Source: an uncultured Prevotellaceae bacterium
Lineage (GTDB): Bacteria > Bacteroidota > Bacteroidia > Bacteroidales > Muribaculaceae
Direction: 5' to 3'
Length of the DNA stretch: 64,000 bases
NCBI GenBank assembly: GCA_900317325.1
Contig: ONGE01000004.1
Coordinates: 124,001-188,000, forward strand
Both the position numbers and the translations under genes were made by a program. Under the pieces are notes generated by a model that worked only from the letters and a program-made list of their open reading frames with translations, made no database searches and was not told the DNA's origin. Of this stretch, positions 5,306 through 60,907 are shown piece by piece (within the stretch, counting starts at the first letter, position 1; every line of letters begins with the position of its first letter).

Positions 5306-5436
5306 CAAGCGATAAATTGAAGACCCAAAAAGCGTATTGCTCAACTTTAAGCATCAAGTGGGGCAATTCAGTCTGCGCTGTTAGTGTCACATGAGAAATG
5401 TCTGGACTGGGATGTTTCAGTAATAACTATTACCGC

Positions 5437-34732: not shown

Positions 34733-37231
34733 ATGAAAAAAGTAATCTCTCTATTGTTTGCTTGCCTGCTGTCTCTCACAATGTCGGCAACAACCCTTGT
34801 CGTGGTCTTTGACGCCACTGTAGACGTGGGTAACGGCTCCACAACAGCCGAACCGTTCATGATTGAAAAAGATGGAGTTACCATGTCGGTCTCCAATGGT
34901 CTTGCCAACGGCAATCAATATCGCATCTACAAGGGACAGACGCTCACCATCTGCAGCGCTGTTGGACCTATTATCAACATCGACTTCCATTGCGTGGCGA
35001 TGGATAATGAAAAATACGGCCCTGGATGTTTTGTAGCCAATGTGGGCGATTATGCCGCTGAAGGCTATGACGGCCATTGGAGCGGTCTTTCCCAGTGTGT
35101 GACCTTCACTGCCGCATCCAATCAGGTGCGCATTACCAAAATCGTGGTCACTGTTCAAATCGACGGTGTGGTTCCTCCCACGATAAGACCGGCAGGCGGC
35201 ACTTACTATGAGCCCATCAATGTAAGCATTACCAGTGTTGAGCCCGAGGCCGTGATCCACTACACGGTCGATGGCAATATGCCCACCGCCGACTCTCCTG
35301 TTTACAGCGCCCCCTTCATGCTCGACAGCGATGCTACAGTCCAAGCTGTGGCCGTACTGGATGGCGAGACAAGTGCTGTGTCGACTGCCCGATATGTGTT
35401 CAATTCTCAAGGGCCCTATGTCCTTGTTGACAGCATCAAGCAGCTGAAGGAGCTTGACGACAATACCAGAGTTAAATTCAATAATCCTGTGCAAGTCATC
35501 GCTCAACTTGGTTATTACATGTGGGTCAAGGATAATAGCGATTGTATCCAACTGTACGGCAATGCTGGCCAGAGCTACGTGCCTGGTGATATGATTCCAG
35601 CCGGCTTCATGGGGACCAAGACGGTTTATCAAGGTGTGGTCGAATTGAAAGAACTCAGCGATTTCCGACCTGCAATAGACTACAAGCTATTGGAAGCCGA
35701 GGTGGTCACCATTCCTGAACTGAATGACGATTTGCTGTCACACTATCTGCTCATCAAAGATGTGGCGTTCAGCTACGATGGCACCAATTACTACATCACC
35801 GATGCCGAGGGCAACACTTGTCCGTTGTATTTGAGAGACTCCAACTTTCCTGCACCAGACAATCTCGTGGGACGCTGGGATGTATATGTGGTCTTGAGTG
35901 CCTATAGGGGCGTTTATCAGTTGATACCCGTCAATAACCCAGTTCATGGCTTCGATCCCTTTGGATTTGGGGATATCTACAATCCCGGTATTCCCAATGG
36001 CACGAAGTTGATGTTCGGCTATGACGCCACGGTCCTGCTCCAATATGGCAGGTACCTGTATGCACGTGACATGACGGGCTATGCGTTGATTTATGGCGAT
36101 ACGCAACAAACCTACAACCAGGGTGATGTCATTCCTGCAGGCTTTACGGCAACCAAGACGACTTACCAGGATATGCCGGAATTGACTAATCCCGAGAACT
36201 TCATGCCCGCTACCGGCCAAGTGGAACTCGATGCCGAAGACTTGGAATTGGAAGACATCGATGTGTTTAAATTCTGCCATTATGTGAAGGTGGCGCAGGT
36301 GATGATTTCGCCCAACAACGATAGCCCGAACGGATCGGGCATATTGACCGACGGCTACGGTGACACGCTTAACTATTACGACCCCCTCGGTCTATTGCGA
36401 CAAGGCGTCCTTGAATCGGGGAAGTGGTACACGGTCTATGGCGTTGTGGGGCTATACCGCCAGCAGCCTGAATTTATACTCACACGTGTTGAGGGATTGG
36501 CTCCGCTACCATTGACCGATGTGGCTGACCTGAGTGAATTGTATGACCTGGACATGTTACATCCGGCGCATTTCACTACGCCGCTCATAGCTGTATATCA
36601 GAATGGTCCTGAGTTGTATGTCAAGGATGCTCAGGGATATTTTGGCCTTGTTTACGGTAACCTGGAGAATACTTTCAACAATGGCGACATCATCAATGAC
36701 GCGGTGTGCTCGTGGTCAGAGTTTGATTGGCGCCGAATCCTGAATCCTGATGCCGCTACGTTTGTCTCCAGCGGTTCGGGTCCTGCCGTTGAGCCAGAGA
36801 TGCTCCCCATCGAGGAAATCTCAAGAGACATGGAGTATTCTTACCTGAAATTCGAGGGCGTGACATTGGTCAAGGTTGATGACTATGGTCGCTATAGGAT
36901 GAGTGACGGGATGGAAGAAATAAGGGTTACTTGGCCAGGGACGTTGCCTAAGCCCAGGAGGTTAAACTTCCCTTGTACTTATTCTGGTGAAGTGACAATT
37001 GCCGATGTCAATTTCTTGATTGATGTGATTCTGGATGAACCTAAGTTTTGGGACGGAAAATACGACGTGACTGGAATATTGTATGTTGACAAATATGCAA
37101 TGAGTGTCAAAGCCCTTATGGTTACAATCCCAGACGACGCATATGACTTAAATAGCGCTGACCTGAATGGTGACGGGGAAATCAACGTTGCCGACTTGAA
37201 TGAATTGATCGGCATTATCCTTGTAGAATAG
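34733..37231 (+). CDS. Secreted multidomain protein, paralogue 2, with a degenerate dockerin
   Basis: 832 residues with a signal peptide (MKKVISLLFACLLSLTMSA). It follows the plan of paralogue 1: N-terminal beta domain (VTMSVSNGLANG, YRIYKGQTLTI), chitobiase-like domain (TIRPAGGTYYEPINVSI, VIHYTVDGNMPTADSPVY), and OB-like repeats (FNNPVQVIAQLGYYMWVKD, YDATVLLQYGRYLYARD, FTTPLIAVYQNGPELYVKD). The dockerin is split: a first half without a proper calcium loop (SGEVTIADVNFLIDVIL), an insertion of about 50 residues, then an intact second half (DLNGDGEINVADLNELI). This looks like decay or remodelling of the dockerin. Confidence 0.85.
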   Translation: MKKVISLLFACLLSLTMSATTLVVVFDATVDVGNGSTTAEPFMIEKDGVTMSVSNGLANGNQYRIYKGQTLTICSAVGPIINIDFHCVAMDNEKYGPGCFVANVGDYAAEGYDGHWSGLSQCVTFTAASNQVRITKIVVTVQIDGVVPPTIRPAGGTYYEPINVSITSVEPEAVIHYTVDGNMPTADSPVYSAPFMLDSDATVQAVAVLDGETSAVSTARYVFNSQGPYVLVDSIKQLKELDDNTRVKFNNPVQVIAQLGYYMWVKDNSDCIQLYGNAGQSYVPGDMIPAGFMGTKTVYQGVVELKELSDFRPAIDYKLLEAEVVTIPELNDDLLSHYLLIKDVAFSYDGTNYYITDAEGNTCPLYLRDSNFPAPDNLVGRWDVYVVLSAYRGVYQLIPVNNPVHGFDPFGFGDIYNPGIPNGTKLMFGYDATVLLQYGRYLYARDMTGYALIYGDTQQTYNQGDVIPAGFTATKTTYQDMPELTNPENFMPATGQVELDAEDLELEDIDVFKFCHYVKVAQVMISPNNDSPNGSGILTDGYGDTLNYYDPLGLLRQGVLESGKWYTVYGVVGLYRQQPEFILTRVEGLAPLPLTDVADLSELYDLDMLHPAHFTTPLIAVYQNGPELYVKDAQGYFGLVYGNLENTFNNGDIINDAVCSWSEFDWRRILNPDAATFVSSGSGPAVEPEMLPIEEISRDMEYSYLKFEGVTLVKVDDYGRYRMSDGMEEIRVTWPGTLPKPRRLNFPCTYSGEVTIADVNFLIDVILDEPKFWDGKYDVTGILYVDKYAMSVKALMVTIPDDAYDLNSADLNGDGEINVADLNELIGIILVE

Positions 37232-45020: not shown

Positions 45021-45040
45021 GAACACACATTATAATTTTG
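45008..45040 (+). promoter_or_regulatory. Promoter TTTG-N21-TAatTTTG of the scaffold leader
   Basis: TTTG at 45008-45011 and TAATTTTG at 45033-45040. No other promoter is visible before the gene at 45253. Confidence 0.65.
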
Positions 45041-45133
45041 TTGCAACGGGACAGAGGGATGATTCCTGTTCCCGCAGCGAACAAATGGTGATAAAAACAA
45101 TAAAATACAGGCTTTATTTGTGGTTAAATATGA

Positions 45134-45181
45134 GAGGTGCGTCGGCAAGATGCGAGAGTCCCAGGACGCACCTCCCTTTTT
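45134..45181 (+). terminator. Terminator/attenuator between the promoter and the scaffold gene
   Basis: Stem GAGGTGCGTC (45134-45143) with GACGCACCTC (45165-45174), then CCTTTTT. It lies about 90 nt behind the likely transcription start and 70 nt before the scaffold ATG. It could end a ~130-nt small RNA or attenuate the operon. Confidence 0.75.
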
Positions 45182-45252
45182 GCGCCACACGGCTATCGCT
45201 ATTGCAACAAAACCATAATAACTGATTATTTACTGTCTAAAACGTTTTGATT

Positions 45253-47811
45253 ATGAAGAAATTCTTAATGACTCTAATGGCGTTGTTCGTGGTCAGTGCG
45301 GCCATGGCAGACAGCTATTTGTACATCGAACCGATATCGGTGACCCAAGACCAGCTGGCTGAGGGCCATGTCACCGTGCCGGTGAAGGCCCATTTCGAGG
45401 GGCGCGTGAGCGGCTTCCAGCTGGACATGACCTATCCCCAGGGCATTACAGCCGCTGGCTTTGAGAATGGCCCTAGCATGACCATCCCCTACATGAACAG
45501 TGCAGGCTTGGATAAGACGCAGGAGATCTCACTCTACTCGAATGAGGCCATGACGCGCATCGTCGCTGCAACCATGACCTACGGCTACTGGTATCCCGCA
45601 GATGGCACCATCCAGAACTACGGCGTCATCAAGTGGGAACCCGGCGACTACGAAGAAATGTTCTATCTCACCTTGAATGTCGCTCCCGACTTCGAGGGCG
45701 GTGACTTGATTATCGAGAGCACCGTCGGCGCGGGCGAGGATGCCCGTGGCGGCACGGTCACCGACCTGGGACAGAGCGGCCAGGTCTATACCACCATGTG
45801 CCCCATTGAGGTCATTCCTGCCCCGATCGAGTCTACCCCGATGCCCGAAATCATGTATTACTGTGATGATGATTTCTGCACGATCGAGGCTATCGGCGAG
45901 GGCGAAGTGCATCTCTATATCGATGATGTGGAAGTCGAGAATCCCTACATGATCAGCAGGCTCTACGGCCAGGACCAGACCTTTATTGCTGCAGCTACCG
46001 CTCAGATCGAGGGTTGGCTTATCAGCGAGGTGACCATGATGGAGGTGACTGTGCCCGGTCGCGCGAAGAGGCCGGTGCCCGCCCCTGTCCTCACCTATAC
46101 CATTGAAGATGACAGGGTAATCGTGAACATCGAGTGGCCTGAGAGTGACGGTAACCGCAAGCTGTATATCGATGGCTGGAAGTATGACGCCTCGGTCACC
46201 ACCCACGAGTTCTATCGCATGGATGAGGATCAGGAAATCAGCATTGTGGCCTATGTGCTCGAAGGTGAGACTTATGCCGCAAGCGAGGTGCTTGATTATA
46301 TGCTCACTGTTCCCGCTCTTGTACAGCTCTATGCGCCCGTTCCTACTATCGAGTGCACTTACAACAACGACGCTGCAATCATCACTGCGGCAGGTGAAGG
46401 TGAAATTCACCTCTATATTGATGGACAGGAAGTGGAGAATCCTTGTGTGCTGCCGCGTGGCGAAGTGGATTATCAGGTCGAGGTAACGGCAATAGCTCGC
46501 ATCGACGGTATGATCGACGGCAGTTATTCGATGACGCTGATCGTGCCTGCCAAGGAAGTTGAGCCCGATCCAGTGCCCGGCTTCAGCCTGACCATGGCCG
46601 ACGCTAAGATTCTGCATGGCCAGAGCATCGTCATCCCCGTGTCGATGACCAACAGCGAGGCTGTCACCGCCTTCCAGACCGACCTGTATCTGCCCGAGGG
46701 CTTCGAGCTGCAGGATGTGGTACTGTCCGACCGCAAGGCCGACCACCAGCTGCTGACCAGCAACCGTGCCGACGGCAGCGTGCGCCTGCTGTGCTACTCG
46801 CCCACGCTCTACACGTTCGAGGGCAATGAGGGCGAACTGCTCTACATCACCGTCAAGACCCCCGACAATGCGTCCGGCGATTATACCCTTGAACTGAAGA
46901 AGAACTTGCTCACGCTGGCTGGCACCTATGATGAGGTGCGCTGCGATGATACCGATGCCACACTCACCGTGATGGCCTACATCCTGGGCGACGTCAATGG
47001 CGACGGTGTCGTGACCGTGACCGATGTCGTGCTCACCGTGCAGCGTGTGCTTGACCTGAATCCCGATCCGTTCATTTTTGATGCTGCCGACGTGAACCGT
47101 GACGGCGATATCACCGTGACCGACGTCGTGCTCATCGCCCGCATGGTGCTCTATCCCGAGTTGGTTGACATGATGCGTGCTCCCGCCCTGGGCGAAATCA
47201 CCGATGCCATGAGCGGCAACGCCATCGACATCATGCCTGGCGAGACCCGCACCGTGACCATCGCCCTGGACAACGATATCGACTACACGGCATTCCAGCT
47301 CGATGTGCAACTGCCCGACGGCATGACCGCCAGCAACTTCAGCCTGACTGGCCGTGCCGGCAGCCACACCCTGAACACCAATATGATGGCCGACGGCAGT
47401 CAGCGCTTGATGTGCTACTCGCCGATGCTGGCCTCGATCAGCGGCAACGAGGGTGCCCTGCTCACCTTCGAGGTGACTGCAACGGGCAGCGTGAGCGGTG
47501 ACATCATGATTGACGGTATCGAGATGGTGAGCGCCGCTTGCCAGACGGTTAACCTCGACAGTTTCGCCATCCAGGTGAATGCCGGTGCCACCACTGCAGT
47601 GAAGGAGATGACTCAGGGCTTGCGCATCTACACCGATGGCAATAACATCATTGTCGAGAGCCCTGTCAGCCAGCGCATCATCATCAGCGATGTGGCCGGA
47701 CGCTCCTACAGTGTCGACGTGACCGAGGGTCGCCACGTCATCCCCGCCCGCAACTCGGGTGTGGTGATTGTGACCGGTGGCGGCAAGACTGCTAAACTCA
47801 TGATCAACTGA
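45253..47811 (+). CDS. Scaffold-like surface protein: three cohesin-like modules, dockerin and T9SS sorting domain
   Basis: About 852 residues from the ATG at 45253 (an upstream TTG is less likely); signal peptide MKKFLMTLMALFVVSAAMA. Order by residue: cohesin-like module 1 (about 20-195, GHVTVPVKAHFEGRVSGFQL); three Ig-like repeats (197-437, GEGEVHLYIDDVEVENPY type); cohesin-like module 2 (443-577, GQSIVIPVSM, VTAFQTDLYLPEGFEL); a dockerin pair (580-640, DVNGDGVVTVTDV and DVNRDGDITVTDV); cohesin-like module 3 (650-775, YTAFQLDVQLPDGMTA); and a T9SS type-A C-terminal domain (about 785-852, LRIYTDGNNIIVES, IIISDVAGRSY, GVVIVTGGGKTAKLMIN). Cohesins bind dockerins in cellulosomes; the assignment here rests on the strand pattern and needs profile search. 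The T9SS domain predicts export through the outer membrane and surface attachment. The next gene is 16 bp downstream. Confidence 0.85.
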   Translation: MKKFLMTLMALFVVSAAMADSYLYIEPISVTQDQLAEGHVTVPVKAHFEGRVSGFQLDMTYPQGITAAGFENGPSMTIPYMNSAGLDKTQEISLYSNEAMTRIVAATMTYGYWYPADGTIQNYGVIKWEPGDYEEMFYLTLNVAPDFEGGDLIIESTVGAGEDARGGTVTDLGQSGQVYTTMCPIEVIPAPIESTPMPEIMYYCDDDFCTIEAIGEGEVHLYIDDVEVENPYMISRLYGQDQTFIAAATAQIEGWLISEVTMMEVTVPGRAKRPVPAPVLTYTIEDDRVIVNIEWPESDGNRKLYIDGWKYDASVTTHEFYRMDEDQEISIVAYVLEGETYAASEVLDYMLTVPALVQLYAPVPTIECTYNNDAAIITAAGEGEIHLYIDGQEVENPCVLPRGEVDYQVEVTAIARIDGMIDGSYSMTLIVPAKEVEPDPVPGFSLTMADAKILHGQSIVIPVSMTNSEAVTAFQTDLYLPEGFELQDVVLSDRKADHQLLTSNRADGSVRLLCYSPTLYTFEGNEGELLYITVKTPDNASGDYTLELKKNLLTLAGTYDEVRCDDTDATLTVMAYILGDVNGDGVVTVTDVVLTVQRVLDLNPDPFIFDAADVNRDGDITVTDVVLIARMVLYPELVDMMRAPALGEITDAMSGNAIDIMPGETRTVTIALDNDIDYTAFQLDVQLPDGMTASNFSLTGRAGSHTLNTNMMADGSQRLMCYSPMLASISGNEGALLTFEVTATGSVSGDIMIDGIEMVSAACQTVNLDSFAIQVNAGATTAVKEMTQGLRIYTDGNNIIVESPVSQRIIISDVAGRSYSVDVTEGRHVIPARNSGVVIVTGGGKTAKLMIN

Positions 47812-47827
47812 TAAAACCCTACAGACG

Positions 47828-48481
47828 ATGATTACCAGAAGTCTATTGTCTATCATTATGGTCGTTGCGGCAACCTTCGGTGCTGCCGCAACCGACCTCT
47901 TTCATATCGAGGATTTCAACATTGAGCCTGGGCAGACGGCACAGGTGGAAATCCTGTTGGATAACGAGGTGCAATACACCGCATTCCAGAGTGACCTCTA
48001 TCTGCCCGAGGGGCTTGTCCTCGAGGCGCAGTCGGTGGCGTTGACCGACCGTAAGGCCGACCACAGCATCGCCACCAGTGTGCTGGCCGACGGCGGCATC
48101 AGAATGATGTCCTACTCGATGTCGTTGCAGCCTTACAGCGGCAACAACGGCACCCTGGTCACCTTCAGGGTCACTGCTGGCGAATCCTTTGCCGGCCCCT
48201 TGACCATCCAGCTCAGGAATACCCGTTTCACCACCCTTCAGGGACGTGAAATCCCTTTTGAGAACACCAGTTGCACTGTGAGCGCCGTGGCGTTGCTCCA
48301 GCCTGGTGACGTGAACGGTGACGGCCAGGTGAACGTCAGCGATGTTTCTACCTTGATCAACAACCTCATGAGCGGCAACGAGGCTGCTCTCAACCCTCAG
48401 GCAGCCGATCTCAACGATGACGGCAGTGTGAACATCACCGACGTGTCGTTGCTGATCAACCTGATCATGAGTGCTGTGTAG
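47828..48481 (+). CDS. Secreted cohesin-like module plus dockerin protein
   Basis: 217 residues with a signal peptide (1-20). One cohesin-like module (about 22-150) is clearly homologous to modules 2 and 3 of the preceding protein: YTAFQSDLYLPEGLVLEAQSV, LTDRKADHSIATS, MSYSMSLQPYSGNNGTLVTFRV. It is followed by a dockerin pair (159-217, DVNGDGQVNVSDV and DLNDDGSVNITDV). A protein with one receptor-like and one ligand-like module could act as an adaptor or polymer unit. It is probably co-transcribed with the scaffold-like gene. Confidence 0.85.
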   Translation: MITRSLLSIIMVVAATFGAAATDLFHIEDFNIEPGQTAQVEILLDNEVQYTAFQSDLYLPEGLVLEAQSVALTDRKADHSIATSVLADGGIRMMSYSMSLQPYSGNNGTLVTFRVTAGESFAGPLTIQLRNTRFTTLQGREIPFENTSCTVSAVALLQPGDVNGDGQVNVSDVSTLINNLMSGNEAALNPQAADLNDDGSVNITDVSLLINLIMSAV

Positions 48482-48553
48482 CACTTTTTTAAGCGTAAAC
48501 TCACAATAGCTGAACTTGCTGGGAATTATTCGTAATCTCTGGTATCATTGTCA

Positions 48554-48601
48554 AGACGAGGGTGCGCGGCACCTGTGTAACGCCCCCCCTCGTCTTTTTT
48601 T
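48554..48601 (+). terminator. Terminator of the scaffold operon
   Basis: Stem AGACGAGGG (48554-48562) with CCCTCGTCT (48587-48595), then TTTTTT. Confidence 0.85.
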
Positions 48602-48624
48602 AGATTGACCATTTCACACATTAA

Positions 48625-50769
48625 ATGATAACTATTATGAAAACACAATCTGTTACTGCAACAAGCTCATCGGCCATTTTTCTTGCTATGGCGATGGCAT
48701 TGATGGTCCTCATGCCTGGTACTGCCCATGCATGGGATTTTACTTACAATGGACTGCATTTCGACATCATCGCAGAAGATGAAGTGGAAGTGACCTACTT
48801 TATGAATCCATTAGAGTCGGGCTACGAGGGTAATATTGTCATTCCCGCCGAGGCTACACGATATGATGGCAGCATCTATCGGGTTACCTCTATCGGTGAA
48901 CATGCCTTCTACCGTTGCGGTGCCCTTACCAGCATCGTGATTCCAAACTCGGTGCGCAACATCGGCAAGGAAGCCTTCATGGATTGCGAAGCCTTGACTG
49001 TCCTTAATCTGCCCCCCTCGGTCGAAACGATCGGCGAGCAGGCTTTCATGTGGTGTGATGGCCTGACCAGCGTCACGATTCCAGGCATAGTGCAGACCTT
49101 GGGTGTAAATGCATTCTACGGCTGCAAGGGCTTGACTAGTGTGACTGTCGGTGCCCATGAAATCTGTGATGAGGCCTTTATTCACTGTTCGGCCATTACC
49201 GAGGCTCACATCGGCCCAGGTGTCGAAGTCATCGGTGTGGGCCCTTTCACATCGTGTCCCATGCTGACCACGCTCACGGTGGATGAGGACAATCCGTTCT
49301 TTGATTCCCGTGACGGCTGCAACGCCATTATTGAGACGGCTACGGGTAACCTTGTGCAGGGCTGCCAGACGACAGTCATTCCCCAAGGCATTGTGTCGAT
49401 TGGCGAACAAGCTTACTGGGGACATGATGAACTGACGGAAATCATACTCCCGTCTTCGGTCACAACTATCGGCAGCCGTGCTTTTTCCGGCACCGGTGTC
49501 ATCGATGTGACTATCCCTAATACGGTGACGCATATAGGCGATGCCGCATTCTTTGGCTGCCCATCCCTGGAGAGCATCACATTCTCAAATGCGATGACTG
49601 TCATCAGTGATGAGATGTGTCGCCAATGCGATAATTTGGCGAGTGTGACCATCCCCGATGGGGTGACGCGCATCGGCGATTATGCGTTTTATATGGCTAG
49701 CATTGATAATTTGTCGTTAGGTAATACGATTACCGAAATCGGTAATTATGCTCTTGGCTTTAACGAGTTCACCCAGTTGGATCTTCCTGCTTCTCTCATA
49801 ACGATAGGCGATTATGCCTTTCAATCATGCTCAAATCTAACAAGCCTGGTTCTTCCTGACTCGCTTGTTTCGATTGGCGAGTATGCCTTTACTGATAACA
49901 CCGAATTGACTTCGGTTTCTTTCCCTCATTCGCTCACGGCAATAGGTCGCTGTGCTTTTTATTCCTGCACCAAATTGGAGCATGTCGTGATTCCTAACTC
50001 TGTCACGAGTATCGGGCCTTCTCCTTTCAATTCCTGCAGGGCGATGGAGTCTATTGTTGTAGAGGAAGGTAACCCGGTCTATGATTCTCGAGGAGGCTGC
50101 CGGGGCATTATCGAGACCGCCAGCAATAAGTTGGTTCAAGGTTGCAAAAGGACATCGATTCCTGACGGAGTCAATATTATCGGTGAGAAAGCCTATGCCG
50201 CTCAGTGGAATTTGTATTATGTCACGCTTCCCAATTCGGTCAAGGTCATTGAGGATGAGGCCTTCCACACTTGCGCCAATCTGTCTGATATTGTCATCCC
50301 CGACTCGGTGATAAGGATAGGCAACTCGGCCTTCGGTAGCTGTGTCAGGCTCAGTAGTGTCACCATTGGCGCTTCGGCTGCCGAAATCGGGAGTTCCTGC
50401 TTTGCCGGTTGCAGGTACCTCACTAATGTGACATGTCGCGCCCTGGTACCTCCCGCCTGTGTGTCAAGCACATTCAACGACCGATACAGCAAGGCTACCT
50501 TGCGCGTGATGCGTCCCTCGCTCGATGCCTACAGGGCTCACGAGGTGTGGAGCCTGTTCTCCAACATCGAGGCGCTGCCGGGAGCAGGCCCCGGTGACAT
50601 GAACGGCGACGGCGAGTTCACGGTGAGCGACATCACGCTGCTCATCAACGCCGTCGTTGGAGCCGGTGAAAACGTCGAGTACAATGCCGATGCCGATGTG
50701 AACGGTGACGGCGACGTGAATATCACCGATGTCATCCAGCTCATCAACCAGATGATGTCTGCGCGTTGA
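48625..50769 (+). CDS. BspA-type leucine-rich repeat protein with C-terminal dockerin
   Basis: 714 residues; signal peptide around residues 12-37. From about 70 to 620 it is built of ~23-residue BspA/TpLRR repeats of the form SIGExAFxxCxxLTSIxIPxSVxxI, interrupted twice by the DNPFFDSRDGCNAIIETATG-type insert. A capping motif (SKATLRVMRPSLDAYRAHEVW) and a dockerin pair (656-714, DMNGDGEFTVSDI and DVNGDGDVNITDV) end the protein. BspA relatives bind host proteins such as fibronectin and fibrinogen. No promoter is evident after the preceding terminator. An ATG at 48637 is an alternative start. Confidence 0.9.
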   Translation: MITIMKTQSVTATSSSAIFLAMAMALMVLMPGTAHAWDFTYNGLHFDIIAEDEVEVTYFMNPLESGYEGNIVIPAEATRYDGSIYRVTSIGEHAFYRCGALTSIVIPNSVRNIGKEAFMDCEALTVLNLPPSVETIGEQAFMWCDGLTSVTIPGIVQTLGVNAFYGCKGLTSVTVGAHEICDEAFIHCSAITEAHIGPGVEVIGVGPFTSCPMLTTLTVDEDNPFFDSRDGCNAIIETATGNLVQGCQTTVIPQGIVSIGEQAYWGHDELTEIILPSSVTTIGSRAFSGTGVIDVTIPNTVTHIGDAAFFGCPSLESITFSNAMTVISDEMCRQCDNLASVTIPDGVTRIGDYAFYMASIDNLSLGNTITEIGNYALGFNEFTQLDLPASLITIGDYAFQSCSNLTSLVLPDSLVSIGEYAFTDNTELTSVSFPHSLTAIGRCAFYSCTKLEHVVIPNSVTSIGPSPFNSCRAMESIVVEEGNPVYDSRGGCRGIIETASNKLVQGCKRTSIPDGVNIIGEKAYAAQWNLYYVTLPNSVKVIEDEAFHTCANLSDIVIPDSVIRIGNSAFGSCVRLSSVTIGASAAEIGSSCFAGCRYLTNVTCRALVPPACVSSTFNDRYSKATLRVMRPSLDAYRAHEVWSLFSNIEALPGAGPGDMNGDGEFTVSDITLLINAVVGAGENVEYNADADVNGDGDVNITDVIQLINQMMSAR

Positions 50770-50985: not shown

Positions 50986-51069
50986 TAAACACAATCAGTG
51001 TGCCCGAACGGCAGGCTGTAAATCAAACAGTAATCGCCTAATTATTAATCTAACAATACATTGAGAAAG

Positions 51070-53706
51070 ATGAAAAAGAGAACATTTTACCTAGCTATCG
51101 TGATGGCGCTCAGCGTGGTGATGAGTGCCCTGGCGGCTCCCGTTGACGAGGCCGCTGCCCGCCTTGCTGCCATGCAGGTATTTAATAACCCGTCGGGAGC
51201 ACCCGGCTTCAGGTCTGGTCTGCCCTCGGGCAACCTGCAACTGTTGCGTGCCGAACCCAGCGATGTGATGGCCGGTCAGGCTGCCTATTTTATCTACAAC
51301 ACCGACAACGCTTTTGTCGTGGTCGCCGGTGATGACCGCGCAGGCATTCTGGCCCGTGGCGGCGCTCCGTTGGACTTGAACCGCATCCCCTGCGGCCTGC
51401 AATGGCTGCTCGAGATGTACAAGGACGAGGTGGACTTCCTGCTGGCGCATCCCCAACTGAATATCACGGCTCCTGCTCTGGGTTCGGGCACAAGTGTGGC
51501 CCCGCTGTTGACCACCCAATGGGGCCAGGGTTATCCTTACAACAACGATTGCCCTGTTTATAGAGGCACGGCGTGTGTGACAGGCTGCGCTTGTACTTCG
51601 TTGGCTCAGGTAATCAATTACTGGAGGTATGCCGATATCACGTCACCAATCGATGCCTATACCACTTCGTCTTTGGGCATTTATCTTGAGGAACTGCCGC
51701 CTGCCGACTTTGATTGGGACCAGATGATCGAGAACTATTACTACATGCCCTTTGACGATGTTCAGGCTGGCGCTGTAGCGAAATTGATGCGCTATGTTGG
51801 TCAGGCCGAGCAGATGGATTACGCCCCCGATGGTAGCGGAGCCAGTGGCAGTGATGTCTTAAGGGCCGCTTTGAAGTTTGGCTATGACGAGGGTGTGGCG
51901 CTCTTGAACAAGGCGAACTTCCTTGCCGACCAGTGGGCAGGTGTCTTGCAGGCTGAGTTGCAGGCAGGTCGCCCTGTCGTGTATATTGGCCATGACAAAT
52001 ACTCCGGTGGTGGCCATGCTTTCAATGTGGATGGCTATGACGCCGAGAACGGCCTCTACCATGTGAACTTCGGATGGGACGGTGATGGCGACACCTACTG
52101 TGCCTTGAATGATTTCTCGGCCTACGGTTACACCTTTTCCAATCTCCAGTCGATGCTTATTGGCATCCAGCCCCCCGATAACGTTGAGACCGCAGTTACT
52201 GTGGCTCCCTCGTCGCTGTTGTTCAACAGCCAGCCGGGCAATCGCGTAATCAAGTCGTTCACTGTCAAGGGCAGTGCGTTGCAGGGTAACCTGTCACTGG
52301 CGCTTGACGACCCGACGGGTTCCTATGCCATCAACAAGACTACCCTCACTGCCGGTGAGGCTTCCGATATGGCAACCGTGCAGGTGACTTACAATCCTGC
52401 CGGAGTGGGTGTGCATAATGCCAGCGTGATTATCAGCGGTGGCGGCATTGAGCCGCAGACGGTGAGCTTGAGCGGCTTTGCTGTTGATGTGACCCCGACG
52501 ATTGAAGTCGATCCGGCTTCGTTGTCGTTTGAAACGACAGTGGGCGAGACCGTGACATCGACCTTCACAGTCAAGGGTGTGAACCTTACCTCTGGATTGA
52601 CGCTTGCGCTCAATGGTGACAGTGAGGACTTTGCCATCGACAAGTCATTCGTCTCGGTTGTTGCGGCTGCCGGGATTGTCACCGTTACGGTAACCTACGC
52701 GCCTGCCGAGGTGGGCGAGTCCGATGCTACAGTGACTGTTACCGGTAGCGGCGCCGAGGCAAAGACGGTGACGCTGCACGGAGTTGCCAATGCTCCTGCC
52801 GCCCCCGCTCAGCCCGGCTTTACGCTGGACTGCGAGCAGGTGGATTTCGGCTACGGCTTCAACGGCTATGGTGAGAACCGCAAGATTATGCTCACAGGTG
52901 AGGGCCTCGCCGGCAATCTCACCTTGAAGTTGGTGGGTGGCGACAGCATCCACTTCAGTGTCAGCCCGAGCACCATCACTCCCGAGATGGCCGCCCAAGG
53001 TGTGGAAATCAACCTGCGTTTCTTCCCCTACAACGTGGGACGACTCAGCACCCGCCTGGTCATTTCCAGCCCCGATGTCGCTGACAAGGAGGTGCCTCTC
53101 ACTGGCTATGGCATCAAGACCGGCGCCTATCTCTATCCGAGCGCCGATTCGATGAGCTTTGAGACCTCGGTAGGGCACTCCGTTCTCAAGACCGTAGGGG
53201 TGCTCAAGAAGAATTTTGAAGGCTGGATTGCCGCACCTGGAGCTAATCATGCCCCCGGCAGCATGGATCCTGTCCTCCCTGTAGTTTTTACTTCGGTGTT
53301 CTGCAATATCGAGGGTGATGAGGAAGGTAATTTCAGCATCGTGTCAACTAACATGACTAAGAACTCTGCGGGTTGTGACAGCGTGATCTTCACCATCTGC
53401 TACACGCCGATGGAGGAAGGCACTCACACGGCCAATCTTGTTTTCTCGACGTTGATATTGAACAACCAATATCCTGCTTATCCTGTCACGATACCCATCA
53501 CGGGTGTCGCAACGGGTGACAGTGCTGCCGGTGACCTGAACGGTGACGGCCAGTTGACGGTGAGCGATGTGATTCTGCTCATCAATGACCTCATCAGCTC
53601 CAATCGCATGGTGACGGCCAATCCTGTTGCCGACATGAACGGCGACGGCGATGTGAACATCACCGATGTCGTCAATCTCATCGACGCTGTGATGCACGCC
53701 GAGTGA
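51070..53706 (+). CDS. Secreted C10 cysteine protease with Ig-like repeats and C-terminal dockerin
   Basis: About 878 residues from the ATG at 51070 (a TTG at 51061 is less likely). Signal peptide MKKRTFYLAIVMALSVVMSALA, propeptide, then the C10 fold: nucleophile Cys (residue 173) in VTGCACTSLAQVINYW, general base His (316) in GGGHAFNVDGYD, then NFGWDGDGD. Three ASH/HYDIN-like Ig repeats follow (about 375-690, pattern VxPSSLLFxxxxGxxVxxxFTVKGxxL), a further beta domain, and a dockerin pair (about 820-878, DLNGDGQLTVSDV and DMNGDGDVNITDV). Relatives include streptopain and interpain. The nucleophile context (ACTS) differs from the usual VATA but keeps the Cys. Confidence 0.9.
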   Translation: MKKRTFYLAIVMALSVVMSALAAPVDEAAARLAAMQVFNNPSGAPGFRSGLPSGNLQLLRAEPSDVMAGQAAYFIYNTDNAFVVVAGDDRAGILARGGAPLDLNRIPCGLQWLLEMYKDEVDFLLAHPQLNITAPALGSGTSVAPLLTTQWGQGYPYNNDCPVYRGTACVTGCACTSLAQVINYWRYADITSPIDAYTTSSLGIYLEELPPADFDWDQMIENYYYMPFDDVQAGAVAKLMRYVGQAEQMDYAPDGSGASGSDVLRAALKFGYDEGVALLNKANFLADQWAGVLQAELQAGRPVVYIGHDKYSGGGHAFNVDGYDAENGLYHVNFGWDGDGDTYCALNDFSAYGYTFSNLQSMLIGIQPPDNVETAVTVAPSSLLFNSQPGNRVIKSFTVKGSALQGNLSLALDDPTGSYAINKTTLTAGEASDMATVQVTYNPAGVGVHNASVIISGGGIEPQTVSLSGFAVDVTPTIEVDPASLSFETTVGETVTSTFTVKGVNLTSGLTLALNGDSEDFAIDKSFVSVVAAAGIVTVTVTYAPAEVGESDATVTVTGSGAEAKTVTLHGVANAPAAPAQPGFTLDCEQVDFGYGFNGYGENRKIMLTGEGLAGNLTLKLVGGDSIHFSVSPSTITPEMAAQGVEINLRFFPYNVGRLSTRLVISSPDVADKEVPLTGYGIKTGAYLYPSADSMSFETSVGHSVLKTVGVLKKNFEGWIAAPGANHAPGSMDPVLPVVFTSVFCNIEGDEEGNFSIVSTNMTKNSAGCDSVIFTICYTPMEEGTHTANLVFSTLILNNQYPAYPVTIPITGVATGDSAAGDLNGDGQLTVSDVILLINDLISSNRMVTANPVADMNGDGDVNITDVVNLIDAVMHAE

Positions 53707-53896: not shown

Positions 53897-56800
53897 ATGA
53901 AACAACGATTAAATTTGATGTGTCGAGTGGCGGTGTTGTTACTGGCACTGTTGCCGGTGGCACTATCGCTCCAGGCCCAGGATACTTTCTGGGTGAACGG
54001 CATCCGTTATTCAATTGACTACGAGGATGAGTACTATTGGGGCACTCCCGATATCATCACCCTGAGGGTGATTTCGGCCACGGGCAGCACGACCTATAGC
54101 GGCGAGATCGTCATTCCTGAAACGGTCAAGGTGAACGTGTCGCGTTACGAAGGTTCGTACTATGGCGGTAACTATGATATGTTCTGCCAGGTCACGTCCA
54201 TTGGTGAAGATGCCTTCCGCGATTGTACCGGCTTGACAGCTGTCCAGCTCCCCAGGAGCATCAAGAACATCGGCAGGAATGCTTTCTACGGCTGTACAGG
54301 TCTGAGTGAATTGACCATTCCTAACGGTGTGAGCAGCATCGGAGAGCAGGCTTTCGCTTATTGCACAAGTCTGACGTCAATGACGTTGCCCAACTCGGTG
54401 ACCTCGTTGGGATGGAACGCGTTTTACTCGTGTACAGGGCTGAGAAACGTGACGCTCTCCAAGAGCTTGACCAGCCTTAATGGTACCTTCGTGGGCTGCA
54501 CGGGCTTGACCACTGTGTCGGTTCCCGCTGGTGTGCAGTCGCTCAACACCACGTTCAACGGCTGTACGGCATTGACGACGGTGCAGTTGCCTCGATCGCT
54601 CAAATCGATTGAAGAAGCTGCGTTTGACGGTTGCTCTTCTCTGGCAAGCATCTATCTGCCCGAGGGTGTGGATTACATCGGCAAGCAGGCCTTCCGCAAC
54701 ACTGCTTTGACGTCAGTGGAACTGCCGAGCCGTGTGTCCAAGGTGTTCGAGAATGCCTTTGAGGGCTGCACGCAGTTGACCTCGGTCACGAGCCGTAACC
54801 TCACGCCGCCCGTAATGGTCAACAACACTGCCTTTGACGGTGAGACCTATGGCACGGCAGCGCTTTATGTTCCTGCAGTGGCTGTTGCCCAGTACAGCGG
54901 CGCCGACTGGTGGAAACTGTTTGAAAACATCGAGGGTCAGGTTGCACTCAATACCCACTACGACTTTGAAGCCGGTGGCATCTATTACCTGATTACCGGC
55001 GGCAATACCGTTGAGGTGACCTACAAAGACACGAATTATAACAGCTATAGCGGCAATGTGACCATCCCTGCCAGCGTGACCTACAACGGCGTGACCTATA
55101 GCGTTACTGCCATCGGTACCTATGCCTTCAACAATTGCACGGGTCTGACCTCTGTTTCGATGCCGGCCACCATCACCAGTATCGGCAGCTTTGCCTTTAA
55201 TGGCTGCAATGGATTGACATCACTCAACCTCCCCGAGTCGCTTGCCGCCATCGGCGAGAGGGCATTCATGGACTGCTCGGGCGTGACATCACTTACCATT
55301 CCTGAAAATGTTACCAGCATCGGTGAATATGCGTTTTCAGGCATCAGAGACCTGACGTCCCTCACCTGGAACGCTCGCGAGTGCTGGACCAACGGCAACA
55401 TGATCACCAGCAGCATCGCCACGTTGACCATCGGCGATGAGGTGGTTGTGATTCCAGGGAACCTGGCCTATTGTTCTGCCATCACGACAGTGGAGATTCC
55501 GCAGTCGGTGAAGTTTATTGGTCAGGAAGCTTTCAATGGCTGTAATGGTGTGACATCGCTGACGATTCCCCAGAATGTGGTTGACATAGGCACTAATGCC
55601 TTTGCAAACATCAACAACCTGACCTCGCTCACCTGGAACGCCCGCGAGTGCTGGACCAACGGCAATATGCCCACCTATCGCATCACTTCGTTGACTATCG
55701 GCGATGGTGTAAAGATTATACCCTCCTATCTGGCCCGGAACTCCCAAATCACAACACTGTCGATTCCTGAGAGTGCTACAATCATTGGCGCATACGCTTT
55801 CAATCAATGCCGTGGCTTGACCAGTGTGGTCATTCCTGACAATGTCACCTTCATTGGTAAAAGCGCTTTCTACAGTTGCTATAATGTGACAGACCTCACA
55901 TTGGGCAAGTCGGTGACGACGATCGACGCCTACGCCTTCATAGATTGCCGCATGAACACGCTCACATGGAATGCGCGCAACCTCAGCTTGGATGATTCAA
56001 GCGGGAACAATCAGTACGATTATGGTAACTCGATAGAGAAGCCTGCTATTTTTGATTTCACAGCGGTGTCGCAGTTAACCATCGGTAACGAGGTGGAACA
56101 ATTGCCCAACTATTTCGCCTATCAATCCAGGGTGGCGACTGTGGAGATTCCTAACTCGGTCACTGCTATCGGAAATTTTGCCTTTGCCGAATGCGACGTG
56201 TTGACCGATGTCACACTGCCGACAGGCCTCATCACTATTGGCGAAAGTGCTTTCGAGAACTGTGAAGTGTTGGCTCATGCCGACTTGCCCAGTTCGTTGA
56301 CAACGCTAGGTGCACGCGCTTTTTATGGCTGTGGTAGACTCACCAGCCTTGCTGTGCCGGCCTCACTCACCTCGTTCGGCAAGTGGGCATTCAACCAGTG
56401 TCTTGGCTTGGAAACCATCGTTGTCGATAGCGAGAACCCCGTGTATGACAGCCGTGAGAACTGCAACATCATGTTCAAGACCGTCAACGACAGCATCATG
56501 TTGATGGGTAAGAATGCAGTGCTGCCCAGCTCGCTGACGGCCATTCCTGACTCGGCCTTCTATGGCCATACCGAAATCACCCACATGGAGATTCCTGCAT
56601 CGGTTACAAGGATCGGCAAAGACGCATTCAACGGTTGCTATAACTTGACTTCTGTAACGCTTCCCGATGGGTTGACACAGATGGGAGATCGTGTATTCTA
56701 CGGTTGTTCAAAACTGACTTCGGTCACGCTGCCGACGGCACTGACTCAGATTGGTGAATGCGCTTTCATGCTGTGCTCTAAATTGAATTCTGTCACGATT

Positions 56801-58438
56801 CCTGCTTCGTTGACTCAAATCGGTAAACGTGCATTCTCTAATTGTAGAGCTCTGCAGTCGATCACTGTCGAGAGCGGCAATCCGGTTTATGATTCACGTG
56901 GCAACTGCAACGCCATTATCGAAACTGCCAGCAACACCTTGACCGAAGGCTGTCTTTCGACGGTAATCCCGTCCACGGTGAAGACCATCGGACAGTATGC
57001 TTTCCAAGGCCGCTCGCCGTCCATTGTCACGATTCCTACTGGTGTTGAGACCATAGCCAGCTATGCTTATTATCAGTGTGATGTTGAGAATCTCTCTTTT
57101 GGTGAAACACTCAAGTCTGTCGGTTATTCTGCTTTTGGCGGCTGTGACAATTTGACGACAATCTCCTTCGGCAATTCGGTTGAGACCATCGGTGATTATG
57201 CTTTCAGCGGTTGCGATAAGTTGATGAATATCGATTTTGGTCATTCATTGGTGTCAATCGGTGATTATGCTTTCAGGAATTCTATCAGTACTGTATATAG
57301 TGACAATCCCTCAATCTACGTCGATGATAACGGTGAAATGTTCATGCTTGTTCAATATGAAGGATACGATGATTATTACTATACACCCATCTATAACAAT
57401 TATGACGGTTGGTATTGGTACCATAACTGGTACGGAGAGGAAATTTGGATATCTGAAGAAGAACTGAACGAATTGATGAATGTCTCAGGAACGGTTACGA
57501 TTACACTTCCTGAATCGTTGAAGACCATCGGAAAATACGCTTTCTATGCTTGCAAGGGACTGAGAAGCGTCGTGATGGCTCCGAACTCAGTGACATCTAT
57601 AGGTGATGACGCATTCAGTCAGTGCCGCAGTATCGAGAGCATTGTCATTCCCAAGTCTGTTAAGACGTCGGGATATAGTGCTTTCTCCGGTTGTAAAATA
57701 GATTCGGTTTGCATCAGTGACCTCGTGGCATGGTGTGACATCGACTTCAAGAATTCTAATAGCAATCCCGTTAATGGAAGTAAAGGACTGTATCTGAACG
57801 GCGAAAAGATTGTTGACCTTGTGATCCCCGTTGGTGTGAACGCAATCAAGGAAAACGCATTTGTCGGCTGTAAGGGATTGAATAGCGCAACGATCGCCAA
57901 CTCGGTCAAGAGCATCGGATACGATGCATTTTATGATTGCACGGATTTGATGCGTGTGGACATCGGTGACTCAGTGGATTCGATTTCCAGCTATTCGTTC
58001 ACTGATTGCACTGGTCTGGTAACTCTTAGCCTGGGTCGCTCGATGAGGTTCATTGGCTACATGTCGTTCTATAACGCTCCCATCGAGAGCCTGACTTCCT
58101 TGGCGACAACGCCCCCCGTCGTTGAGAGCTACAATCCGTTCTCTTGCTATTCGACTGCCACCTTGCGTGTGCCGATGGCTTCGGTCGAGGCTTATAAGGC
58201 CGCCACTATCTGGAAGAAGTTCACTAACGTTGAGGGTATTCCCGGCGGTGGTCCCGGCGACTTGAACGGCGATGGTGAGTTGAGCGTCAGCGACGTCACG
58301 ATGCTCATCAATCTCATCATGAGTGCCGGCGAGGAAGGAATCGATGGTAATGGCGTGGCCGATGTGAACGGCGATGGTATGGTTAACGTCAGCGACATCG
58401 TTCTGCTCATCGAAATGGCGCTTAATTCGACCAGATAG
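53897..58438 (+). CDS. Very large BspA-type leucine-rich repeat protein with C-terminal dockerin
   Basis: 1513 residues, the longest protein in the window; signal peptide MKQRLNLMCRVAVLLLALLPVALSLQA. Two leucine-rich blocks are each introduced by a short beta domain (NGIRYSIDYEDE at about 35 and GGIYYLITGGNTVEVTYKD at about 360). The blocks contain several dozen repeats of the SIGxxAFxxCxxLTSVxLPxSV type; near-identical units such as TSLTWNARECWTNGN recur. A Tyr-rich insert (about 1150-1190, YEGYDDYYYTPIYNNYDGWYWYHNW region) breaks the array. A capping motif (ATLRVPMASVEAYKAATIW) and a dockerin (1454-1513, DLNGDGELSVSDV and DVNGDGMVNVSDI) end it. An adhesin role is inferred. Confidence 0.9.
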   Translation: MKQRLNLMCRVAVLLLALLPVALSLQAQDTFWVNGIRYSIDYEDEYYWGTPDIITLRVISATGSTTYSGEIVIPETVKVNVSRYEGSYYGGNYDMFCQVTSIGEDAFRDCTGLTAVQLPRSIKNIGRNAFYGCTGLSELTIPNGVSSIGEQAFAYCTSLTSMTLPNSVTSLGWNAFYSCTGLRNVTLSKSLTSLNGTFVGCTGLTTVSVPAGVQSLNTTFNGCTALTTVQLPRSLKSIEEAAFDGCSSLASIYLPEGVDYIGKQAFRNTALTSVELPSRVSKVFENAFEGCTQLTSVTSRNLTPPVMVNNTAFDGETYGTAALYVPAVAVAQYSGADWWKLFENIEGQVALNTHYDFEAGGIYYLITGGNTVEVTYKDTNYNSYSGNVTIPASVTYNGVTYSVTAIGTYAFNNCTGLTSVSMPATITSIGSFAFNGCNGLTSLNLPESLAAIGERAFMDCSGVTSLTIPENVTSIGEYAFSGIRDLTSLTWNARECWTNGNMITSSIATLTIGDEVVVIPGNLAYCSAITTVEIPQSVKFIGQEAFNGCNGVTSLTIPQNVVDIGTNAFANINNLTSLTWNARECWTNGNMPTYRITSLTIGDGVKIIPSYLARNSQITTLSIPESATIIGAYAFNQCRGLTSVVIPDNVTFIGKSAFYSCYNVTDLTLGKSVTTIDAYAFIDCRMNTLTWNARNLSLDDSSGNNQYDYGNSIEKPAIFDFTAVSQLTIGNEVEQLPNYFAYQSRVATVEIPNSVTAIGNFAFAECDVLTDVTLPTGLITIGESAFENCEVLAHADLPSSLTTLGARAFYGCGRLTSLAVPASLTSFGKWAFNQCLGLETIVVDSENPVYDSRENCNIMFKTVNDSIMLMGKNAVLPSSLTAIPDSAFYGHTEITHMEIPASVTRIGKDAFNGCYNLTSVTLPDGLTQMGDRVFYGCSKLTSVTLPTALTQIGECAFMLCSKLNSVTIPASLTQIGKRAFSNCRALQSITVESGNPVYDSRGNCNAIIETASNTLTEGCLSTVIPSTVKTIGQYAFQGRSPSIVTIPTGVETIASYAYYQCDVENLSFGETLKSVGYSAFGGCDNLTTISFGNSVETIGDYAFSGCDKLMNIDFGHSLVSIGDYAFRNSISTVYSDNPSIYVDDNGEMFMLVQYEGYDDYYYTPIYNNYDGWYWYHNWYGEEIWISEEELNELMNVSGTVTITLPESLKTIGKYAFYACKGLRSVVMAPNSVTSIGDDAFSQCRSIESIVIPKSVKTSGYSAFSGCKIDSVCISDLVAWCDIDFKNSNSNPVNGSKGLYLNGEKIVDLVIPVGVNAIKENAFVGCKGLNSATIANSVKSIGYDAFYDCTDLMRVDIGDSVDSISSYSFTDCTGLVTLSLGRSMRFIGYMSFYNAPIESLTSLATTPPVVESYNPFSCYSTATLRVPMASVEAYKAATIWKKFTNVEGIPGGGPGDLNGDGELSVSDVTMLINLIMSAGEEGIDGNGVADVNGDGMVNVSDIVLLIEMALNSTR

Positions 58439-58635: not shown

Positions 58636-59556
58636 ATGATGAGAATAAGACTTTTTTTCGTGGCCGCCTTGCTCCTGGCTATGTTGCAGGGTTGGGCTGC
58701 TCCCGCAGTGATTAATGTGAATGTCGGGGAATTGGACTTCGGCAACCTTGAGGTGGGCTACCCGGTCACCAAGTCATTTATGGTAACGGGCTCCAATCTC
58801 CAGGGCGACATCAATCTGGCAATCGAATCACAGCACAACTTTTACTATGAAGTCACCCCCGAGACCATCACGCCCGAGGAGGCTGCTGGCGGTGCCGTCG
58901 TGACGTTGAAATGCTATCCCATTTCAGATTACCTTCATGGTGCAACCCTCATCCTGACCAGTCAGGATGCCCAGGATGTCCTCATCCCTATTACGGCCAC
59001 GGCCTTTTTCCCCGATATGTTCGTGAACAACCGGGCCGAGAGCTTCACCGGTTTTGCCGGGGGATTCAGTAGACGCACCGGCGTTGTACGTTTTGCCGAT
59101 GCCGAGATTCCGCCCGACCCTAACCCCAACACCCCCATGTTGAATGCCGTTCACCCCGATTACATCGTGCCCGACTACTATTCAATCAGTGTCGAGGGTG
59201 CTGATGCTTCCCAGTTCATGGCCCGAATCGTGAAAGGCAGCTCTATCGCTAAACTCTGTACTGTCGAGATTACTTATGTTCCTCGCAGGGTTGGCACCCA
59301 TTCGGCGACGCTCAAGCTCTATTGCAGCCGTGCCGGAGTCCCCCAGGTCACGATTCCGCTCAGGGGCGAGGCTACCGAGGTGCTGGGTGACCTGGACGGT
59401 GACGGCACGTTGGCTGTGGGTGATGTGACGGGCTTTATCAACCTGATGCTCAGCAATGGCGATATCCCCTCACGCGCCGATCTTGACAGCAACGGTGCGA
59501 TTGACATCAGCGATGTCACCATTCTGGTCAACCGCTTGCTCAACGCTGCCGAGTAA
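58636..59556 (+). CDS. Secreted Ig-like (ASH-type) protein with C-terminal dockerin
   Basis: 306 residues with a signal peptide (MMRIRLFFVAALLLAMLQGWA). Two ASH/HYDIN-like Ig domains (about 25-125 and 130-245) share the pattern LDFGNLEVGYPVTKSFMVTGSNLQG with the C10 protease at 51070. Then comes a dockerin pair (251-306, DLDGDGTLAVGDV and DLDSNGAIDISDV). It looks like the non-catalytic rear half of the C10 protein as a separate gene. No enzyme motif. Confidence 0.87.
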   Translation: MMRIRLFFVAALLLAMLQGWAAPAVINVNVGELDFGNLEVGYPVTKSFMVTGSNLQGDINLAIESQHNFYYEVTPETITPEEAAGGAVVTLKCYPISDYLHGATLILTSQDAQDVLIPITATAFFPDMFVNNRAESFTGFAGGFSRRTGVVRFADAEIPPDPNPNTPMLNAVHPDYIVPDYYSISVEGADASQFMARIVKGSSIAKLCTVEITYVPRRVGTHSATLKLYCSRAGVPQVTIPLRGEATEVLGDLDGDGTLAVGDVTGFINLMLSNGDIPSRADLDSNGAIDISDVTILVNRLLNAAE

Positions 59557-60818: not shown

Positions 60819-60907
60819 ATATACTGGCGACACCTTGGACAGGCAAGGCAATATCACCACCCGTTCCTCGTTATAAATGTGAATGAACCGTGCATGAGCC
60901 ATACGGC

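Follow-up and report, generated by a model that had tools for sequence, protein, structure and literature searches.

A stretch of 64,000 nucleotides from contig ONGE01000004.1 (positions 124,001 to 188,000; hereafter the window), which belongs to an uncultured Bacteroidales of the ruminant gut, carries two adjacent plus-strand genes, 45253 and 47828 (named by their first position in the window), separated by 16 bp, whose products join cohesin modules to dockerins. We consider it fairly probable that the pair represents a cohesin hub, anchored through the type IX secretion system (T9SS), that displays dockerin-tagged proteins. The cohesin modules of 45253 and of the adaptor 47828 would capture secreted proteins bearing a dockerin, mostly at the C-terminus, among them C10, M6 and S8 peptidases, leucine-rich repeat (LRR) proteins of BspA type, CotH proteins and others; many different single-dockerin proteins would be displayed on few shared sockets. 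Binding, its calcium dependence, T9SS export of 45253, location at the surface, and the crossing of the outer membrane by cargo without a sorting domain are the steps that we infer. The sequences show cohesin homology, two-repeat dockerins, T9SS machinery, conservation of the module in the genus and, in proteins of another family, cohesins joined to a T9SS sorting domain. An original prediction, made from the letters of the window, had described a T9SS-anchored cohesin-dockerin scaffold; its testable parts were mostly borne out and its interpretation is supported. Cohesins and dockerins are both present, and since cohesins are few we describe an anchor or hub, not a classical multi-cohesin scaffoldin.

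The gene pair

In the product of 45253 a signal peptide and module A are followed by an immunoglobulin-like (Ig-like) stretch; module B comes next, then a dockerin, module C and, at the C-terminus, a domain of 75 residues. The features of the pair, with the evidence for each, are as follows (HMM, hidden Markov model).

45253..47811, + strand: putative anchor or hub protein, 852 aa (BLASTP among modules, PF00404, family HMM)
45310..45810, + strand: module A, divergent and cohesin-like (weak BLAST to B, C and D; family HMM; orthologue L048)
45823-46578, + strand: Ig-like stretch of 45253
46585..46980, + strand: module B, cohesin family, residues 445-576 of 45253 (BLASTP; hhalign)
46981..47154, + strand: hub-borne dockerin between two cohesins (PF00404, 39.1 bits; signature VT.V.Q / VT.V.R)
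47182..47583, + strand: module C, cohesin family, residues 644-777 of 45253
47584..47808, + strand: probable diverged T9SS-type C-terminal sorting domain (PF19910, E 0.03; hhalign, 76%; without TIGR04183 match)
47828..48481, + strand: putative adaptor protein, 217 aa, with signal peptide, module D and C-terminal dockerin
47888..48298, + strand: module D, cohesin family, residues 21-157 of 47828
48299..48478, + strand: adaptor dockerin of class T-N, the commonest class among the dockerins read (PF00404, 55.5 bits)

Modules B, C and D are mutually homologous (BLASTP E 5e-27 for B-D, 2e-22 for B-C, 1e-27 for C-D). Module A is only weakly similar to them by BLAST (E 6e-4 across 19 residues at best, 0.006 to 0.13 for the rest). 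The family HMM finds three module matches in 45253 at E<=1e-4, and in the orthologue L048 it places the first module at residues 27-124 (E 3e-4). The predicted architecture, three related modules and one dockerin in 45253 and one more homologous module plus a dockerin in 47828, is thus confirmed, with one of the three modules divergent; both dockerins score above the PF00404 cut-off of 22.9 bits. Among named genomes, the closest relatives found come from Muribaculaceae of goat, roe deer and sheep (L048-L050), and the hub-adaptor gene pair occurs in the window, in L048-L050 and in 10 of the 29 genus loci examined.

No terminator was found in a scan of 44600-49000, which, with 3.1 expected by chance, is little guide to whether the genes form an operon. 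A perfect sigma-70 consensus (TTGACA, 16 nt, TATAAT; 12/12) lies at 45009-45036, about 220 bp upstream of 45253. The promoter consensus of Bacteroidales differs from the sigma-70 TTGACA/TATAAT.

Identity of the modules

The cohesin fold is a beta-sandwich, and the modules had been predicted to have this layout. By sequence homology over the whole domain they belong to the cohesin family. Three profiles were used: A5, built from 58 modules (three from the window and 55 others, pairwise <=72% identical among themselves, one of which is 91% identical to module D); A9, built from 11 tandem modules of three other Bacteroidales genomes; and A10, in which these are pooled. Searched against PDB, A5 returned four NagJ chains first (2jh2, 2ozn, 2o4e and 2w1n; E 1.9e-4 to 4e-4), which we take to be the cohesin module of NagJ (PDB label, O-GlcNAcase NagJ), 2ozn presumably being a cohesin-dockerin complex. 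These matches span profile positions 8-128 of 129; weaker ones, with E values up to 10, are cohesins together with unrelated chains. A9 matched the scaffoldin chain 5n5p_A over positions 4-123 (E 1.9e-6), and all ten of its matches at E<=1 are named scaffoldin or scaffolding protein, nine of them spanning only about 30 positions. With A10, the 12 matches at E<0.5 were all NagJ or scaffoldin chains.

The Pfam cohesin model, PF00963, matched 20 of the 58 modules in A5 at E<=1, with a best E of 8.3e-12, and four of the 11 A9 members at E<=0.001, while no other Pfam family matched more than three A5 members. The window modules align to A9 with an hhalign probability of 99.6% (E 5e-24). In the genome to which the window belongs (own genome), PF00963 gave three sub-threshold matches (E 3e-4, 0.01 and 0.12), the first two of which coincide with modules found independently by alignment to the window, and the third of which does not. 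Since 38 of the 58 members are left unmatched by this usual model at E<=1, Bacteroidales cohesins may have been overlooked.

As a control, limited in reach, a single-sequence PDB search with the Ig-like stretch 45823-46578 returned no cohesins; when all of 45253 was the query, the one chain with a cohesin name was a weak match (2xdh, E 0.19), over module B. The X-module, an Ig-like partner of type II dockerins, was considered after a phmmer match of 47828 to the CipA chain 2b59_B (residues 80-209, dockerin included; E 0.007) and rejected on sequence grounds, as module-only profile searches yield cohesins instead.

Dockerins

Fourteen further dockerin proteins had been counted in the window. 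Pfam finds 13 at E<0.01 (47828 included), three of them under the cut-off; the fourteenth, internal to 1095, is found by a window-built HMM (E 1e-7) and has no Pfam match. The genome total is larger: PF00404 has no fewer than 152 matches there at E<=0.001 (150 of 288 candidates scored; some matches are partial or share an open reading frame, ORF), against eight module matches (about nine modules). Six proteins of the genome bear cohesins, and none of the matched ones holds more than three modules.

We read about 0.4 Mb of the own genome, chosen mainly by dockerin density, plus the window, and obtained 96 dockerin ORFs. The dockerin lies within 15 residues of the C-terminal end in 74 of them; a crude hydrophobicity test gives a signal peptide in 93 of the 95 complete ORFs, and two have a lipobox-like site. 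Two calcium-loop repeats (D-x-N-x-D...D) are found in 82, one repeat in 13 and none in one. Aspartate stands at position 1 in 82/82 first and 78/82 second repeats and at position 12 in 82/82 of both, in a search pattern that itself permits few residues there (five at position 1, four at position 12).

Positions 10, 11, 14 and 18 are, we assume, the recognition positions of type I dockerins. Classed by these, the 82 dockerins (five of them in cohesin-bearing proteins) comprise 36 T-N/T-N, 20 N-D/N-D and 26 other combinations, and T-N and N-D are never combined in one dockerin (0/82). Among the window's clients, 8744 has a dockerin of class T-N, and 31950 and 60890 have dockerins of class N-D. 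Dockerins flanked by two cohesins, counted as distinct cases among the genus loci, have a hydrophobic residue at position 14 in 18/18 first and 11/18 second repeats. This first-repeat feature occurs in seven of the 82 own-genome dockerins, two of which are hubs. Adaptor dockerins are T-N/T-N in nine of ten cases, and those followed by a cohesin only (n=9) are mixed. This third signature, carried by the dockerins between two cohesins, is what would be expected if hubs must not bind themselves, but the cases include orthologues and internal repeats and so are not independent.

Presumed cargo

The window encodes the following presumed clients and, as the last entry, a further C10 peptidase, all on the + strand.

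51061..53706: C10 peptidase with C-terminal dockerin (PF01640, 171 bits; PF00404, 30.9 bits)
48625..50769: BspA-type LRR with C-terminal dockerin (PF13306, 381 bits; PF00404, 38.4 bits)
53897..58438: BspA-type LRR, 1513 aa, with C-terminal dockerin (Pfam scan)
58636..59556: Ig-like with dockerin (PF00404, 22.8 bits; cut-off 22.9)
60890..62521: CotH-kinase-like with N-terminal dockerin (Pfam scan)
5398..8487: weak LRR match with C-terminal dockerin (Pfam scan)
8744..10828: alpha-amylase with C-terminal dockerin (PF00128, 59 bits; PF00404, 45 bits)
13790..16246: NAGPA phosphodiester glycosidase-like with C-terminal dockerin (Pfam scan)
21490..22965: CotH with C-terminal dockerin (Pfam scan)
22958..24451: CotH with C-terminal dockerin (Pfam scan)
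31950..34472: sub-cut-off dockerin (PF00404, 20.1 bits)
34733..37231: partial sub-cut-off dockerin (PF00404, 18.2 bits)
1095..4949: C10 peptidase with an internal dockerin-like stretch, without Pfam dockerin (window-built HMM, E 1e-7)

The C10 peptidase of 1095-4949 is fused to Laminin_G, FGE-sulfatase-like and calycin-like domains.

For the genome, 30 of 68 candidate ORFs from dockerin-dense stretches were scanned in random order, skipping those over 1,500 aa. Half are peptidases or LRR proteins: eight peptidases (five C10, two M6, one S8) and seven LRR or DUF285 proteins. The rest are four CotH proteins, one cleaved-adhesin, six single cases (NAGPA, flavodoxin/cyclophilin, endonuclease I, Omp28, HYDIN-like and X25) and four without an informative domain. 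At E<=1e-5 Pfam lists no dockerin in two of the 30. No glycoside hydrolase family matched any of the 30 at this threshold; the window holds one alpha-amylase. Given the cargo of these 30 clients and the low number of modules per protein (three at the most in the genome's matches), we rejected a cellulosome.

T9SS machinery and the C-terminal domain

T9SS machinery is present in the genome, with an intact SprA (2580 bits) and, in the window, PorV:

10911..12083, + strand: PorV, T9SS outer-membrane protein (PF19572, 217 bits)

As SprA is nearly universal in the order (187 of 198 Bacteroidales genomes), its presence is a weak test, and we dropped it as a discriminating one. On the same strand, 82 bp separate the end of the dockerin-bearing amylase gene 8744 from the start of porV downstream. 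Beside the intact copy of SprA the own genome has another match, which is partial and contains two TGA stops (C18:29711-31042).

The weakest part of the prediction is the T9SS type-A signal at the end of 45253, whose tie to known T9SS tails is indirect. The family of 45253 tails, A7, aligns with ten canonical T9SS tails at an hhalign probability of 76% over 48 columns, and two A7 tails of the same genome reach 18.9 bits with TIGR04183, under its cut-off of 23. For the 45253 tail itself TIGR04183 has no match, PF19910 only E 0.03 and PF18962 none listed. A7 has nine matches in the genome, including the five own-genome tails used to build it (three belong to cohesin proteins, two to dockerin proteins). 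Its HMM, which predates retrieval of the sequence in question, matches the tail of a peptidase from a sister genus (L125) at E 7e-8 in a set of 12; this tail scores 21.8 bits with TIGR04183 (cut-off 23) and passes the PF19910 cut-off. Two more cohesin proteins have a shorter tail that looks similar by eye only. From these matches the 45253 tail would be, at best, a diverged sorting domain.

An apparent enrichment of sorting tails on cohesin proteins (p 0.0013) was dropped as a test, the HMM having been made from the counted tails. In contig C25 (about 92 kb) of the own genome a stand-alone cohesin-type module (L014, 6260-6886) has a signal-peptide-like start, no dockerin and, by eye, a short sorting-like tail, and recalls the single cohesin of Ruminococcus albus.

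Distribution

Modules were found in 100 of 101 genomes of the genus, own included, a figure that speaks for a conserved module and not for a conserved gene pair. The highest count in the genus sample is 28 module matches, in G097. The order sample comprised 198 Bacteroidales genomes, own included, some of which share a genus. Modules occur in 16, dockerins in 53 and both in 15 (Fisher p 6e-9, uncorrected for kinship); put otherwise, a dockerin match is present in 15 of 16 module genomes versus 38 of 182 others. Across the phylum sample, A9-type modules were found in nine of 296 genomes, own included.

Cohesins joined to a T9SS sorting domain, as had been proposed for 45253, are seen in a related Bacteroidales protein: L096:10522-14238 passes the Pfam cut-offs of both PF00963 (58.8 bits) and PF18962 (33.8 bits). 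L096:2974-10374 and L102:3-3104 also have PF18962 above cut-off. Counted by genome, G103, of another Bacteroidales family, has two proteins with eight and five modules and with PF18962 ends above cut-off, the second being above the PF00963 cut-off as well. G148 has a contig-end ORF with ten modules and another ORF with four modules and PF18962, and L100 (G235) has three modules, two dockerins and an end match to PF19910 under its cut-off. Other module-array ORFs run off their sequence or lie outside the tail scan. Two very long tandem-cohesin ORFs of other Bacteroidales have the appearance of complete scaffoldins: L099 (G103), with seven modules in 3,650 aa read, and L095 (G148), with ten modules in 1,728 aa. 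Around 20 of the best dockerin matches listed for G103 we read 22 dockerin ORFs, 17 of which end in the dockerin; three combine a dockerin with a detected sorting domain, one has a look-alike tail and one a near-start dockerin.

Weighing of the readings

Several results weigh against a T9SS-anchored hub that binds dockerins. Singly, the window modules have no match to PF00963 at E<=1. TIGR04183 does not recognize the tail of 45253 and finds no sorting domain in the genome's six cohesin-bearing proteins (0/6); its 13 own-genome matches at E<=0.1, seven of them above cut-off, all lie on other proteins. The long tail is found on three of six cohesin proteins versus two of 91 dockerin-only ORFs, a count that is descriptive only and circular, since the HMM was built from those five tails. 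That orthologues and internal repeats are not independent counts on the same side. Clients without a sorting domain have no known route across the outer membrane. By eye, four dockerin ORFs beside tandem-cohesin genes in other genomes (L095, L096, L097 and L098) themselves end in a sorting-type tail, so not every plug lacks a sorting domain. Finally, module matches are absent from seven of the 12 dockerin-rich genomes sampled (>=10 matches), namely G152, G194, G195, G207, G216, G219 and G296, and of the 16 genomes with modules nine have at most two dockerin matches.

This uneven pairing would suit modules that have the cohesin fold and do not bind dockerins, serving as spacers or in adhesion or glycan binding, with the dockerins held otherwise or acting as calcium-stabilised C-terminal caps. 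Non-dockerin uses of cohesins have been published, for example in the TMEM132 adhesion proteins (PMC6030884). On the other side stand the co-occurrence in the order sample, the recognition positions kept in unmixed classes and the fact that hub and adaptor themselves bear dockerins. We give non-binding modules a small chance of being right. Many of the matches listed for the seven module-less genomes begin at profile position 8-11, and these genomes may hold a different type of dockerin.

Two genomes of sister genera in the same family, G125 and G239, bear on the remaining readings. They have no dockerin match at E<=1e-4, and none of their seven C10 peptidases has a dockerin. The strongest case for a sorting-type tail is L125. 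With TIGR04183, L124 and L129 reach 13-15 bits, under cut-off; L134 (complete as L160) gives E 1e-3 with an HMM whose training tails included these three; and the tails of L131, L135 and L138 drew no support from any model. With the same HMM, the tail of a sister-genus BspA-type LRR protein is of sorting type (E 4e-4), and this protein shares 37% identity with the dockerin-tailed LRR protein 48625 of the window across 196 alignment columns. Some C10 and LRR proteins of the sister genera appear to end in a sorting-type tail, with scores mostly below curated cut-offs, and we count this in favour of the hub. In the own genome, six of the seven C10 peptidases read end in a dockerin; five of these had been picked from dockerin ORFs, and we dropped the share as a measure.

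A bolder version is indirect T9SS sorting, in which the dockerin would have replaced the sorting domain on C10 and LRR cargo and a few cohesin proteins with sorting domains would carry or receive more than 100 proteins at the outer membrane, one secretion signal serving many proteins by piggy-back. We regard it as rather unlikely. A periplasmic complex, with genuine cohesin-dockerin pairs, dockerin proteins with ordinary signal peptides staying inside the cell and only a few sorting-domain proteins reaching the surface, accords with the C-terminal dockerins (74/96), the near-universal signal peptides (93/95) and the two lipobox-like sites. The sorting-type tails on C10 and BspA-type LRR relatives in the dockerin-free sister genera speak against it, and it seems to us quite unlikely. 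A diverged clostridial cellulosome acting on plant fibre and acquired by gene transfer is very improbable: LRR-dockerin and peptidase-dockerin proteins do occur in a rumen Ruminococcus (PMC7480376), but there are no glycoside hydrolases in the 30 clients, one amylase in the window and no tandem cohesin array among the genome's module matches.

Should binding hold in the T9SS-anchored hub, gut Bacteroidales would possess a system that displays many proteases and repeat proteins. It would add new cohesin-dockerin pairs and allow a stringent test of indirect T9SS cargo sorting. The system makes testable how cargo without a sorting domain gets to the surface.

Comparison with known systems

In earlier studies this group of bacteria had appeared to lack cohesins. 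In the camel rumen they were reported in Firmicutes_A bins only (PMC9177762). A rumen Bacteroidetes genome was reported to have neither cohesins nor dockerins, in agreement with other Bacteroidetes genomes (PMC5831590). Among cockroach-gut genomes, scored with Pfam cut-offs, dockerins were named in some Bacteroidota, and the only cohesin named was that of a Christensenellales (PMC10266427). Twenty-five rumen metagenome-assembled genomes, 13 of them Ruminococcus or Ruminococcus_E, held 200 dockerins and 18 cohesins (PMC9763041). Dockerins of rumen Bacteroidetes, those of Prevotella, have been noted with a role 'not defined yet' (PMC7480376). The parts examined of PMC12484212, PMC12871809 and PMC8865330 contain no Bacteroidales case, and in the portions of the open-access literature examined we found no description of cohesins in Bacteroidales. 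What would be new here, judging from the sequences, is a cohesin-dockerin display system in Bacteroidales with a cargo rich in proteases and LRR proteins, probably anchored through the T9SS.

The anchor had been predicted as a departure from Firmicutes systems. A T9SS-type anchor would be such a departure, but a scaffoldin with a surface C-terminal domain had already been proposed in Cloacimonadota: Ca. Stygibacter has a proposed tandem-cohesin scaffoldin with a surface-attachment C-terminal domain, and its enzymes with C-terminal dockerins include S8 and gingipain-like C25 peptidases (PMC8542988). This is the nearest precedent, sharing with the present system a predicted C-terminal domain for surface attachment, the C-terminal dockerins and the peptidase cargo. 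It differs in its phylum and in having one 3,755-aa tandem scaffoldin in place of several hubs of one to three modules and an adaptor. A handful of its dockerin proteins are named, and both cases are predictions.

NagJ of Clostridium perfringens supplies the closest solved chains to the A5 profile, at full length, but there the module is part of a Gram-positive exo-enzyme. As in T9SS type A cargo (TIGR04183/PF18962), cohesin arrays of other Bacteroidales end in the sorting domain (two in L096, one in L102); the tail of 45253 departs from it in having no TIGR04183 match and no listed PF18962 match. From the cellulosome the system is set apart by its three or fewer modules per matched protein and by the 30 scanned clients free of glycoside hydrolases. 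Ruminococcus albus is Gram-positive and is not known to have a T9SS, and its dockerin cargo is mainly carbohydrate enzymes. It shares with the present genome many dockerins and very few cohesins; the Hungate1000 study describes many-dockerin, few-cohesin species and suggests that a single cohesin anchors the R. albus dockerin enzymes at the surface (PMC6118326). On our best reading, the hub is nearer to this anchoring than to a cellulosome.

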